This document shows positions 57,601-60,144 of a stretch of 64,000 nucleotides of DNA, piece after piece. Location: assembly GCF_004025965.2 (NCBI RefSeq), contig NZ_SAYU02000010.1:1-64000 (forward strand), written 5' to 3'. The stretch comes from Phycicoccus flavus (GTDB lineage: Bacteria; Actinomycetota; Actinomycetes; Actinomycetales; Dermatophilaceae). The translations under genes and the position numbers were made by a program. The notes under the pieces were generated by a model. It ran no database searches. It saw nothing but the letters and a program-made list of their open reading frames with translations, and was not told the DNA's origin. The stretch's first letter is position 1. The number at the start of each line of letters is the position of its first letter.

Positions 57601-57882
57601 CCGGCCGGCACCTACGAGTTCAAGATCGCCCACGGCCTGTCGTGGGACGAGAACTACGGTGACGGCGGCGCGCCGAACGGTGGCAACCTCAGCGTGACGG
57701 TGCCCTCGGACGGGGCGCGGACGACCTTCGTCTACGACTCCGCGACGCACGTGACGACCGTGTCGTCGGTGGCGGGCGGCGCCCCCGCGGGACCCCGCGT
57801 GGGGCGGGCCGAGCGGGTCAGGAGGCGCTCGGCCCGCCCGACGACGTCGCCGCGGGGCCGAGGTCGCCCCGCTGGACGGTGA
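54679..57882 (+). CDS. Secreted multi-domain GH13 alpha-amylase/pullulanase-like enzyme
   Basis: 1067 residues. Signal peptide about residues 1-33 (LPVIVAGALLLGTPGMLAAT, AAAA site). Residues 35-130 are a starch-binding X25-like module (SELGCPEDWMPQC, AENYGAGGQADGSNLSF). Residues about 150-560 are the GH13 barrel: FFDIITNHT, DGFRIDTVKH (nucleophile Asp410), AFGEVYDG (acid/base Glu444), FLGNHDMGR (Asp514). An Ig-like segment follows, then two more X25-like modules at about 834-930 and 939-1030. The last 30 residues (after PAGPR) are Arg-rich and read through a bidirectional terminator, so the natural stop may have been lost. Acts on starch outside the cell. ATG with CGAGGAGCAACG. Confidence 0.9.
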   Translation: MLRARRRLPVIVAGALLLGTPGMLAATPAAAAADSVALVGDLQSELGCPEDWMPQCPDTELTREAGSDRWSATFEVPKGTWQFKVALDDGWAENYGAGGQADGSNLSFTLAGDAQVEFAYDDATHAVTWTPVLTGGTSATDRSLALDSLREPLTRERFYFVMADRFANGSTANDRGGLTGGKLTTGFDPSDKAFYHGGDLKGLTGKLDYIKGLGTTAIWLTPSFKNKPVQGGPGQESAGYHGYWITDFTRIDPHLGTNADMKTLIDAAHAKGMKVFFDIITNHTADVIDYREGTYGYRTKKNYPYKDADGTVFDDRDYVNQTFPELDPKVSFPYTPFLHPGDEDAKTPAWLNDVTMYHNRGDSTFAGESSTYGDFVGLDDLFTERPEVVEGMGEIYKTWVDFGIDGFRIDTVKHVNLEFWQKFIPDILGEAKARKNDDFFAFGEVYDGNPAVMSQYTTAGKLQATLDFGFQQQGVDFAKGNSAAVLADFFAKDDWYTDADSNAYQLPTFLGNHDMGRVAMFLKDSSADEAQLLKRVQFADSLMYTMRGNPVTYYGDEQGFIGTGGDQLAREDMFASKVDIYNTEQVLAGPEGSRDRFDTGHPLYRHIAALSALRAKHPALADGAQVARYAADGAGIFAVSRIDATKGSEYLVVANNDTKAASATIDTWTTRGEWVPLLGGKKPVKGTKSGAVRVTVPGLSVAVYRASAPMRTKVAAPEVTVSLDGGPVSGRAEVGADVDSDTFTQATFYVRPVGASDWTLLGTDDNAPFRVFDDVSDVPVGTPLEYRVVVEDAAGRVAADSGWAVVASPQAETGDVELGDPVEQPSAVSVPGTHNSEMGCPVGTGVSGDWAPDCDQAQLALDTEDGIWKRHYTIPAGSYGYKAALDRGWTVNYGAKGIQDGDNISYETPDGDVTFYFDPTTHWATSDEEGPIVTAPGAFQSELGCAGDWDPSCMRPWLQDKDGDGVYTWATVRIPAGTYEFKIAHGLSWDENYGDGGAPNGGNLSVTVPSDGARTTFVYDSATHVTTVSSVAGGAPAGPRVGRAERVRRRSARPTTSPRGRGRPAGR
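57802..57839. terminator. Bidirectional terminator between the amylase and LmeA genes
   Basis: GGGCGGGCCGAGCG (57802-57815) pairs with CGCTCGGCCCGCCC (57826-57839), 10-base loop. It is inside the 3' ends of both convergent reading frames. Confidence 0.75.
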
Positions 57883-58528
57883 CGTCGGTCCCGTCGAGGC
57901 GGACGTCGAAGCCGGCGCCGCTCACCGACACCTCGCGCAGGACCATGCCCTCGGGCACGCCGGGGACCTCGAGCCGCAGCCGGACGAGGTCGCGGGCCAG
58001 GGCGGACGCCGCGGCGCCGACGAACCCGGGTCCGCCCACGTCCACGGTCTCCGGCTCCAGCACCAGCCGGCCGTCCTCGGCCCGGACCGTGCCGGTGGCC
58101 TGCACGACGAGGTCGCGGCCGAGCACCCGGGCCGGCCGCCGGAGCCCGACGAGGCCGCCGCTCACCGCGTAGAGCCTCGTGCCGTCGCCCACCTGCTCCG
58201 AGGCGGTGTCGAACGGGACGGTCGCCCGGATCGCGAGCGTCGCCGCCTCCAGGGCCTCCGGGCCGAAGCGCACGCCGGTGCCGGTCGCCTCGACGTCGAC
58301 GAGGTCACCGTCGGCCGACACGACCTCGCGGCTGCGCAGGTCGACCGCACCGAGCCAGGTCTGGTCGGCGGTCAGGTCGTCGGGCGGGGGGACCCTCACG
58401 CCGGACGGCGCGGGTGACGGCAGGGCCGGCGCCGGGCCCGCCCCGCCGCCGAGCGAGGCCAGGAGCGCGGCCCCGGCCAGGACGAGCACGACGAGGGTGC
58501 TGACGACACCGAGAAGGAACTGCCGCAT
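57818..58528 (-). CDS. LmeA-like DUF2993 lipid-binding protein
   Basis: 236 residues. An N-terminal membrane anchor (FLLGVVSTLVVLVLAGAALL) and a Pro-rich spacer are followed by the DUF2993 domain: DLRSREVVSADGDLVDVEAT, FDTASEQVGDGTRLYAVSGG, GAAASALARDLVRLRLEVPG. In mycobacteria LmeA binds phospholipids and supports lipomannan elongation; that function here is inferred. ATG at 58528; no clear SD in the GC-rich region upstream. Last 65 bases overlap the amylase frame. Confidence 0.8.
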   Translation of the reverse strand: MRQFLLGVVSTLVVLVLAGAALLASLGGGAGPAPALPSPAPSGVRVPPPDDLTADQTWLGAVDLRSREVVSADGDLVDVEATGTGVRFGPEALEAATLAIRATVPFDTASEQVGDGTRLYAVSGGLVGLRRPARVLGRDLVVQATGTVRAEDGRLVLEPETVDVGGPGFVGAAASALARDLVRLRLEVPGVPEGMVLREVSVSGAGFDVRLDGTDVTVQRGDLGPAATSSGGPSAS

Positions 58529-58593
58529 CCGCCCACCCTGCCACGCGGCGGCCGGTCGGCCGGGGCGCGGAGGGCGGCCGCCGTCGAACCCCC

Positions 58594-58622
58594 TTGCCCC
58601 CGGGCACGCTCCGGCCTAGCGT
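58594..58622 (+). promoter_or_regulatory. Promoter of the 58.6 kb structured RNA
   Basis: TTGCCC (58594-58599), 17-base spacer, TAGCGT (58617-58622). One of the better promoter matches in the window, with no annotated protein gene behind it on this strand. Confidence 0.6.
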
Positions 58623-58628
58623 GGCAGG

Positions 58629-58911
58629 ACACGTGAAAGGAGGTGGTCCAGAACATGCATTCTTCTCGGACTCGTGAGGTGGCTGCTCGCTAGCAGCCTT
58701 CGGCCGGACCGGAGTGCCGGCGAATCCACAGCAGTCACCCGACCCGCAGGTGCCCCGGAGAACGTCCGCCCGGGGAGGGCTCGACACCGAGCCACACCTG
58801 CGGGTCGCTGCTGTCCGGCCCCGGTACCCGGCCGCGGCCGCGGCCGCGGGGGCGGGGGACGGAACGGGTGGACACGGGAAACGCGGGGTTCGCCGGGGCG
58901 ATCTTCCCGTG
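58629..58911 (+). ncRNA. Candidate structured RNA with embedded 12-codon ORF
   Basis: From the predicted start near 58629 the RNA has, in order: a 17-base stretch complementary to the 16S rRNA 3' end (58635-58651), a 12-codon ORF, a stem at its stop codon (GGCTGCT-CGCT-AGCAGCC, 58681-58698), and a three-way junction. The junction has P1 ACCCGCAGGTG/CACCTGCGGGT (58742-58752/58795-58805), P2 CCCCGG/CCGGGG (58753-58758/58770-58775) and P3 GGCTCG-ACAC-CGAGCC (58778-58793). P1 is extended by CAGCAG/CTGCTG and GGCCGGAC/GTCCGGCC. A final stem CACGGGAA/TTCCCGTG (58873-58911) may terminate. No plus-strand gene follows; mftD converges. The rest of the 58529-58965 gap shows nothing else. Confidence 0.6.
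58655..58693 (+). CDS. 12-codon leader-peptide-like ORF
   Basis: ATG 58655 to TAG 58693 encodes MHSSRTREVAAR. The Shine-Dalgarno GGAGGT is 10 bases upstream, inside the long 16S-complementary stretch. The stop codon is inside a perfect 7-bp hairpin. A second, overlapping frame from GTG 58633 (VKGGGPEHAFFSDS) is also open. No conserved function known to me; coding status is inferred from the ribosome-binding site only. Confidence 0.45.
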   Translation: MHSSRTREVAAR

Positions 58912-58965
58912 CGGACCCCGGCGTTCCCGGAGGGGGCGGGAAAGTCGGGGCGCGAGGGGTGCGGG

Positions 58966-60144
58966 TCAGGCGCCGAGGGTGCGGGTGAAGCCGTCGGGGA
59001 CGAGGACGTCGTCGCGGCCCAGCTCCTGGACCGAGGACCTGCCGAGCCCGAGCAGCGCGGAGGAGATGCCGCCGGACATGATGTCGAGGACGTTCTCGAC
59101 GCCGGCCTGCCCGTTCGCCGACAGCCCCCAGAGGTAGGCGCGCCCGATCATCACGGCCTTGGCGCCGAGGGCCAGGGCCTTGACGACGTCGCTGCCGCGC
59201 CGGATGCCGCTGTCGAAGACGACCTCGACCTGGTCGCCGACGGCGTCGGCGATGCCCGGCAGCATCCGGATCGCGCCCGGCGTGCCGTCGAGGTTGTTGC
59301 CGCCGTGGGTGGAGACCGAGATGGCCGTGACGCCGGCGTCGACCGCCCGCTTGGCGTCGTCGATCCGGCTGATGCCCTTGACCATGAACGGCCCGCCCCA
59401 GGTCTCGCGCATCCAGGCGATGTCGTCCCAGGTGGGCGGCGGGGTGGTCATCCACTCGCCGTAGGCGCCGAAGAACGTCGGGCCCTTCTCGCCCGGGCCG
59501 CCCGCGAGGTTCGGCGTCGTGAGGTCCGGCAGGGCTCCTGAGCGCACGAAGCCCGTGAGCCAGCGCGGCTTGAGGAGCACCTCAGGCGCGAACCTGGCCA
59601 TCGCCTTTGGGTCCAGCTTCTCGGGGATGGCGGGGCTGCCCCAGTCCCGCCCGTGCGAGAACGTCCAGTCGAGGGTGGCGATGACGCCCTTGGCCCCGGC
59701 CGCGCGGGCCCGCTCCATCCGCGACTCGATGACCTCGCGCCCGCCGGACCAGTAGCTCTGGAAGAACACCTTGTCGTTGACGGCGCACACGTCCTCGATG
59801 GCCGAGGACCCGAACGAGCTGAGCCCCATCGCCGTGCCGCGGGCGGCGGCGGCCCGCGCGACGGCCACCTCGCCCTCGGGGTGGACGGCCTGGACGCCGG
59901 TCGGCGAGATGATGACCGGCAGGGCGAGGTCGACCCCCATGACGTGCGTGGAGAGCGAGCGCTCCGCCGACCCGCCCGCGACGTGCGGGGCGAACCCGAG
60001 CTCGGAGAACGCGGCGACATTGTCCTCGTAGGTGAGGCCGCGCTCGGACCCGGCGAGCAGCGCCTTGTAGACCGAGCGGGGCAGCCGTTTCTCGGCCCGG
60101 CGCTGGGCCTCGGCGACGGTCTCGAACCATCCGGTGCTGCTCAT
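58966..60144 (-). CDS. mftD: Pre-mycofactocin synthase MftD
   Basis: 392-residue FMN-dependent enzyme of the alpha-hydroxy-acid oxidase fold. In mycofactocin synthesis it oxidatively deaminates the AHDP intermediate (from the Val-Tyr end of MftA) to the redox-active pre-mycofactocin. Seen: RLPRSVYKALLAGSERGLTY, LPVIISPTGVQAVHPEGEVA, FMVKGISRIDDAKRAVDAGV (FMN Lys), ISVSTHGGNNLDGTPGAIRM (catalytic His) and VFDSGIRRGSDVVKALALGA. ATG 60144 with AAAGAGGATCCCG upstream; overlaps mftF as ATGA. It is last in the cluster here, not next to mftC. Confidence 0.93.
   Translation of the reverse strand: MSSTGWFETVAEAQRRAEKRLPRSVYKALLAGSERGLTYEDNVAAFSELGFAPHVAGGSAERSLSTHVMGVDLALPVIISPTGVQAVHPEGEVAVARAAAARGTAMGLSSFGSSAIEDVCAVNDKVFFQSYWSGGREVIESRMERARAAGAKGVIATLDWTFSHGRDWGSPAIPEKLDPKAMARFAPEVLLKPRWLTGFVRSGALPDLTTPNLAGGPGEKGPTFFGAYGEWMTTPPPTWDDIAWMRETWGGPFMVKGISRIDDAKRAVDAGVTAISVSTHGGNNLDGTPGAIRMLPGIADAVGDQVEVVFDSGIRRGSDVVKALALGAKAVMIGRAYLWGLSANGQAGVENVLDIMSGGISSALLGLGRSSVQELGRDDVLVPDGFTRTLGA

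Follow-up and report, generated by a model that had tools for sequence, protein, structure and literature searches.

Near the right end of a 64,000-nt stretch of Phycicoccus flavus DNA (contig NZ_SAYU02000010.1, positions 1 to 64,000; hereafter the window), an earlier note had described a plus-strand transcription unit in which a promoter, a strong ribosome-binding site and a 12-codon open reading frame (ORF) are followed by an RNA with a three-way junction, and by no gene. What is this RNA, and what does a ribosome-binding site do in it? The note could name no feature type for it. The object itself is real, and a name for it exists. A cmscan search of the surrounding 2.5 kb showed that positions 58629–58813 (+) are a full-length match to Rfam family RF02471, Ms_IGR-5 (model positions 1–184 of 184), with a score of 107.5 bits against a curated cut-off of 45 and an E-value of 1.2e-24. 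Sub-threshold matches to SAM-Chlorobi, asR3 and CC2171 in the same 2.5 kb were taken as chance, and a tRNA identity was rejected, the sole tRNA in the window lying at 2801–2874. The covariance-model search returned one RF02471 match in the 4.26-Mb assembly of the organism itself and located Ms_IGR-5 in 30 of 58 genomes of a set of relatives, own genome counted. In a set drawn from the class, 192 of 296 genomes carried it, 191 of them with one match and one (G140) with two. The 16S-complement pattern described below likewise occurs twice in G140, on C110 and C59. Membership of the window locus in Ms_IGR-5 is secure, and the family is a free-standing actinobacterial small RNA, usually present as a single copy. 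Among the interpretations offered before, a small regulatory RNA with an ORF agrees with these data and with those below, which describe a free-standing small RNA whose conserved frame is probably translated; a leader left behind by gene loss does not. The features of the locus are listed in the table.

Table. Coordinates of the features discussed (window positions)
Feature	Positions	Strand	Remarks
Extra segment with the RNA as its only recognized feature	58545–58968		Absent from the mftD/LmeA-like interval of five congeners; ends approximate
Promoter-like TTGCCC, 17-nt spacer, TAGCGT	58594–58622	+	TTG 58594–58596, TAGCGT 58617–58622; arrangement recurs before homologues
RNA gene, Ms_IGR-5 family	58629–58822	+	Rfam match 58629–58813; conservation fades by about 58822
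Extended Shine-Dalgarno sequence, 15-nt complement of the 16S rRNA 3′ tail, GAAAGGAGGUGGUCC	58635–58649	+	15 pairs, one G–U
Hairpin H1, GUCC 58646–58649 with GGAC 58668–58671	58646–58671	+	Start codon in loop; excludes pseudoknot
12-codon ORF MHSSRTREVAAR and stop TAG	58655–58693	+	Frame near-constant in homologues; probably translated
Pseudoknot, 5′ strand GGACU (ORF codons 5–6)	58668–58672	+	Covariation
Helix A, 5′ strand GGUGGCUGC (codons 8–11)	58678–58686	+	Covariation
Stop-codon hairpin, 58681–58687/58692–58698	58681–58698	+	Alternative to helix A
Helix B, 58689–58694 (includes stop codon)/58716–58721	58689–58721	+	Weaker support; one mismatch in window
Helix A, 3′ strand GCAGUCACC	58731–58739	+	Covariation
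Terminal three-way junction	58740–58807	+	P1 58740–58752/58795–58807; P2 58753–58775; P3 58778–58793
Pseudoknot, 3′ strand CGUCC (P2 loop)	58763–58767	+	Four pairs in window; U58672/C58763 mismatch

Most of the comparisons below, and all pseudoknot statistics, rest on 140 loci found with the covariance model (30 from the relatives set, own included, 30 from the class set and 80 more chosen from the class list), parsed with G[AC]GG[TC]G as anchor. This set was used for the pseudoknot because the pattern-selected loci, which are among the matches listed for a pattern fixing the binding site and GGACNCGTGAGGTG, hold these elements constant. A second, overlapping set of 160 loci, partly pattern-selected, shares or overlaps 60 with the 140 and makes up 175 homologues together with 15 pattern loci that have longer spacers. 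Its parse set aside 37 loci: those 15, four class loci that belong to the 140, and 18 that were duplicates or not homologous. For alignment, five loci were dropped for length or N, and 131 of 155 were kept as non-redundant.

The promoter that the note had proposed is present as TTGCCC, a 17-nt spacer and TAGCGT, and the arrangement TTG...TANNNT precedes 115 of the 140 homologues, compared with 0.6 expected from mononucleotide shuffles, although a strict sigma-70 consensus scan found no promoter at the locus. A strict terminator scan at the locus found nothing; in the homologues, a modestly U-enriched stretch comes after the terminal junction. A GC-rich palindromic run (58829–58849) lies just past the RNA, outside the conserved family. 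As the note had stated, no supportable plus-strand gene follows, and mftD (TIGR03966) converges on the RNA. The next ORF downstream of the homologues was codirectional in 57 cases and convergent in 63, and no cluster of neighboring ORFs exceeded 13 members; these figures come from 248 neighboring ORFs called by a GC3 heuristic, some of which look like antisense frames. Thus, the consistent codirectional downstream gene that would mark an attenuator leader was not found, mftD being convergent and the neighbors of the homologues mixed.

The ribosome-binding site proved far stronger than the note had claimed, since it can form 15 pairs with the tail of 16S rRNA. When up to two mismatches were allowed, GGATCACCTCCTTTC occurred at two places in the 4.26-Mb assembly, the 3′ end of 16S, which was confirmed as SSU rRNA, and 58635–58649 on the other strand. 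Every homologue was then scored against the 16S tail of the P. flavus genome: 15 consecutive pairs were kept in 139 of 140 and 14 in the remaining one. The predicted duplex with the tail amounts to −29.1 kcal/mol in the window and to a mean of −29.5 kcal/mol across homologues, and the spacing from the complement to the start position is 4–6 nt in 137 of 140. A related 16S-complement pattern was present in 116 of 197 class genomes, a count made by genome and not by RNA locus. This complementarity suggests that the RNA captures ribosomes by the 16S tail.

The 12-codon ORF reported by the note was confirmed, and its frame is held with little variation. An NTG start at a fixed place with exactly 12 codons is present in 135 of the 140 homologues; two have 13 codons, and the three without NTG at that place have ATG one codon upstream (two) or ATT (one). 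TTG (52), ATG (51) and GTG (34) serve as start codons, and TAG (129), TAA (6) and TGA (5) as stop codons. All 160 loci of the second set have the 12-codon frame, 159 of them with an NTG start, and NTG with 12 codons was also found in 15 of the 15 longer-spacer pattern loci. Start codons replace one another at one fixed place and stop codons at another, a pattern difficult to account for in an untranslated sequence, and we infer that the frame is translated. Its product may not matter. Across the 160 loci, residues 2–4 vary freely and the later, conserved codons coincide with base pairs, so that the peptide is conserved mostly at paired bases. Thr occupies position 6 in 130 of 140, and Glu-Val positions 8–9 in 140 of 140, the latter constancy being partly imposed because GAGGUG is the parse anchor. 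Also constant is the distance from the start codon to GGAC, which is fixed in 137 of 140 homologues and measures 14 nt in the window.

The three-way junction P1–P3 was recovered as the note had drawn it, with P1 as a perfect inverted repeat of 13 bp instead of 11 bp. P1 can be extended outward to 58702/58820 by segments that are 85% complementary, and use of this extension depends on the segment folded: it is part of the lowest-energy folds of 58620–58915 and 58629–58822 and absent from that of 58629–58813. Conservation is poor around 58702–58714, and what 58731–58739 conservedly pairs with is the ORF, not the extension. Compared with shuffles, the folding z-score was −2.4 for 58620–58915 and −3.5 for 58629–58813. 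Fixed alignment columns gave no support for the P2 stem, where the alignment is too gappy; a sequence-by-sequence search, permissive and without a control, found a hairpin with an RUCC loop in 134 of 140 homologues. Compensatory changes, which the note would have sought in P1–P3, do occur, the strongest of them in new pairings that were not drawn there.

One of these pairings is a pseudoknot between GGACN of codons 5–6 and N′GUCC in the P2 loop. The pair 58671:58764 is formed in 140 of 140 homologues (CG 130, UA 7, UG 3), against a mean of 133.5 and a maximum of 137 in shuffles, and among the nine RNAs with GGAU, seven have AUCC and the other two GUCC. The adjacent pair 58672:58763, which involves the third letter of codon 6, is formed in 100 of 138 (types GC, UA and AU; shuffles, mean 62.2, maximum 77), and its joint state changes 43 times on the tree by parsimony. 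Slid partners of 58672 were paired in 33 of 102 (−2), 60 of 138 (−1), 52 of 140 (+1) and 88 of 140 (+2), the last of these placing 58672 opposite the constant U58765. The shuffle controls ignore relatedness, whereas the slid controls preserve it. Three copies from the bacterium's own family (L028, L029 and L030) have a diverged 3′ domain and GGAAC or GGAAU in place of GGAC; GUUC or UUCC stands near the expected place of the loop and could still pair.

Helix A joins codons 8–11 to the segment just before P1. Each of its column pairs is formed in at least 123 of 140 homologues, and the strands make 8.74 of 9 pairs with their own partner, compared with 8.11 after a swap with differing strands. 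The pair types are UA 117, CG 18 and GC 1 at 58684:58733, and CG 87, UG 28, UA 18, GC 2 and AU 1 at 58686:58731. Clades with changes on both sides at several positions were seen, GGUGGCGGC with GCCGCCACC and GGUGUCCGU with ACGGACACC, the partner here being chosen by best pairing; the column-pair minimum of 123 and the whole-structure figures below come from alignments built without regard to pairing. Helix B, which takes in the stop codon, has 80.5% of its cells paired in alignment A1, whose 131 sequences are mostly pattern-selected. At two loci (L106 and L112) UGA replaces the UAG stop, and the bases opposite it in helix B apparently change with it; L125 has UAA. For the whole structure, 91.8% of the cells in A1 are paired, compared with 82.6% after shuffling and 34.6–46.2% after sliding, 25 of the 33 pairs changed on both sides, and the covariation score is 0.323, against 0.170 for shuffled and 0.050–0.066 for slid controls.

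The Rfam consensus for RF02471 agrees with this structure in the 5′ segment, the ORF region and the terminal hairpin, but pairs the binding site with the end of the ORF and contains neither helix A nor the pseudoknot. The columns of the Rfam helix are paired in 96–138 of 140 homologues, yet the pairs hardly covary, the binding-site strand being near-invariant and a two-sided change appearing in one sequence. Pairing of the binding site with 58732–58739 was tried and not adopted: six column pairs form in 110–140 of 140 and the next two in 24 and 3. Covariation in the homologues supports a resting RNA in which a pseudoknot ties codons 5–6 to the P2 loop and helix A holds codons 8–11 paired with 58731–58739, beside the terminal junction.

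Other shapes compete with this one. GGAC has two mutually exclusive partners, the end of the 16S complement (giving hairpin H1) and the P2 loop; since H1 and the pseudoknot share GGAC, its conservation alone favors neither. The 7-bp stem in which the note had placed the stop codon is visible in both sequence and fold. Helix A is present in the lowest-energy fold of 58629–58813. For 58629–58822, the helix A state has −94.7 kcal/mol, compared with −98.8 kcal/mol for the fold with the stop hairpin, H1 and the extended P1, a cost of 4.1; such energies leave the pseudoknot out, and which fold wins here varies with the choice of 3′ end. Native stop hairpins were better than chimeras in 107 of 140 homologues (mean, −12.2 versus −9.9 kcal/mol; mean z, −0.97), which lends modest support to the stop hairpin as an alternative state.

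The neighborhood of the locus indicates how the RNA may have arrived. No Ms_IGR-5 match at E up to 0.001, and no pattern match, was found in 11 congeners. A hidden copy was considered and rejected, because a search relaxed to E up to 5 matched six of the 11, all at 13.7 bits or less (cut-off 45), and none has the pattern. Five of the 11 have an mftD counterpart 84–88% identical to that of the window, and in all five the LmeA-like gene (PF11209) comes after mftD on the same strand with no RNA between them. The alignable parts of the two flanks are 5–6 bases apart in four of these congeners and 36 in the fifth. In the window, alignment extends to 58544–58548 (58519 for one congener) and resumes at 58969–58973 (58961 for the same one), and about 420 bp carrying the RNA separate mftD from the LmeA-like gene. 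No mobile-element gene was seen in the extra segment. Contamination of the assembly was rejected: the mftD of this contig is as close to the five congeners as stated and the LmeA-like gene is alignable too, which places the extra segment in a genuine contig of the genus. A blastn search found the segment closest to Nocardioidaceae-type loci. In a tree of 81 rows chosen from 241 aligned, the window copy fell with copies from Nocardioidaceae, Kribbella and Jiangella (30-row group, support 89/99), and its grouping with one Nocardioides MAG had support 97/67; of 17 own-family copies, 14 formed part of another group (85/86) and the other three stood apart on a long branch. The window copy belongs to no starred set in the tree. 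The empty congener sites, together with the Nocardioidaceae affinity in a moderately supported tree, point to horizontal gain, probably as a bare RNA gene. The window copy is therefore a new and probably horizontally placed member of a known family, and one species with the RNA against eleven sampled congeners without a detectable copy provides a natural gain-of-gene comparison.

Three further observations concern the flanks. The LmeA-like (PF11209) gene and mftD, at 57818–58528 and 58966–60144 of the window, adjoin each other in five of the five congeners with mftD, which suggests a shared transcript, interrupted here by the RNA segment. In one congener (G010:C1:248930-250098, locus L186) mftD was matched as two overlapping pieces, a possible frameshift. 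At the right end of the segment, 58949–58968 and 58969–58988 form a 20-nt direct repeat (80%), which may be chance or the trace of an insertion.

As a working model, to which we give a little less than an even chance, the RNA would be a ribosome-gated regulator whose active shape reports ribosome loading, a mechanism read from conserved sequence and pairing. A ribosome would load through the duplex between the 16S tail and 58635–58649 and translate the 12 codons, opening the pseudoknot (from ORF nt 14) and helix A. With scarce ribosomes, the compact fold would persist. Since a ribosome that runs to the stop must open both pairings, and the stop hairpin can take the place of helix A, translation would gate the fold and hence the stability of the 3′ domain or its availability to a partner.

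The same features could serve a different purpose: as a decoy of the 30S subunit and a ribosome counterpart of 6S-type RNA, the RNA might titrate or clamp ribosomes at initiation, its tail duplex lying 5′ of the start codon and its pseudoknotted block 3′ of it. With the first base of the start codon numbered 1, the pseudoknot begins at ORF nt 14, approximately where mRNA enters the initiating ribosome, given the length of the channel; the fixed distance from start to GGAC, the genome-unique and conserved complement of the full tail and a tail duplex of −29 kcal/mol fit such a role. However, neither the exact 12-codon frame nor its interchanging stop codons would be required of a pure decoy, and we consider this reading unlikely. 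Unlikely too, in our view, is a conventional base-pairing small RNA that meets its targets through the P2 loop or an internal loop near 58722–58728 and is translated incidentally: the RNA is free-standing, in one copy and with no conserved neighbor found, and has a 3′ hairpin with modest U enrichment, but the most conserved letters of the P2 loop are explained by pairing with the ORF, and the 16S complement and exact ORF length are left unexplained. A locus that exists to make the 12-residue peptide, with a fold that does no more than regulate its synthesis, is improbable; its near-constant length and the constancy of residues 6 and 8–9 (the latter partly imposed by the anchor) would agree with it, whereas the unconstrained residues 2–4, the coincidence of conserved residues with paired bases and the covariation of a wobble letter, 58672, with the P2 loop would not. 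Finally, an attenuator leader that lost its downstream gene, an option the note had also raised, shares the anatomy of short ORF, exclusive hairpins and terminal stem but is highly improbable, as the sites in all five congeners with mftD are empty of both the RNA and any missing gene, and the orientation or family of downstream genes in homologues (heuristic calls) is inconsistent.

Ribosome gating thus remains the reading we prefer. In the boldest reading, which we regard as speculative and unlikely, the RNA would be a ribosome sensor or clamp common to much of the actinobacteria. It would seize the initiating 30S subunit by the 16S tail and confront it, where mRNA enters the channel, with a covarying pseudoknotted block; ribosome supply would set its fold, the RNA would in turn tune translation, and its gene could pass from family to family as a bare unit of 0.4 kb.

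Ms_IGR-5 has appeared in several surveys. In S. lividans, RNA-seq supports an Rfam hit to the family (PMC8079986), and in S. avermitilis the RNA is listed as a small-RNA transcription unit (PMC8780764). It is also transcribed in M. smegmatis, where ncMSMEG15794c overlaps IGR-5 (PMC10454040). Ribosome-protected reads fall on it in M. abscessus and M. smegmatis, and such reads are common to the large majority of characterized E. coli ncRNAs (PMC4974804). Term searches found no mention of Ms_IGR-5 in PMC3828370 and nothing on it in PMC4633059. Among titles and the beginnings of abstracts, with subscription papers and supplements outside the search, no description was found of a 16S complement, a 12-codon ORF or a pseudoknot in Ms_IGR-5. 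The family is widespread, yet the accessible papers merely list it, and the present findings turn it into a testable hypothesis of ribosome sensing. The window copy itself occupies a site that is empty in five congeners.

Among known systems, the leader-peptide attenuators of trp and his operons combine a short ORF, mutually exclusive hairpins and a terminator-like stem. The window RNA shares this anatomy, but is free-standing and has neither a downstream gene nor a regulatory codon run. Long complementarity to the 16S tail is shared with the extended Shine-Dalgarno motifs of Staphylococcus aureus mRNAs, as described in PMC13009471; those motifs occur in many mRNAs, whereas here a single genomic site is fused to a structured domain. 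The tisB mRNA of E. coli (PMC7708055) likewise has a pseudoknot in an RNA for which ribosome access matters, but it encodes a toxin and its pseudoknot serves upstream standby binding. In the window RNA, the pseudoknot would instead tie the ORF to the terminal hairpin. 6S RNA binds RNA polymerase. Ms1 also does so (PMC10454040). The role that the window RNA may share with both is that of a decoy of a central machine; their partner is RNA polymerase, whereas its putative partner is the ribosome.
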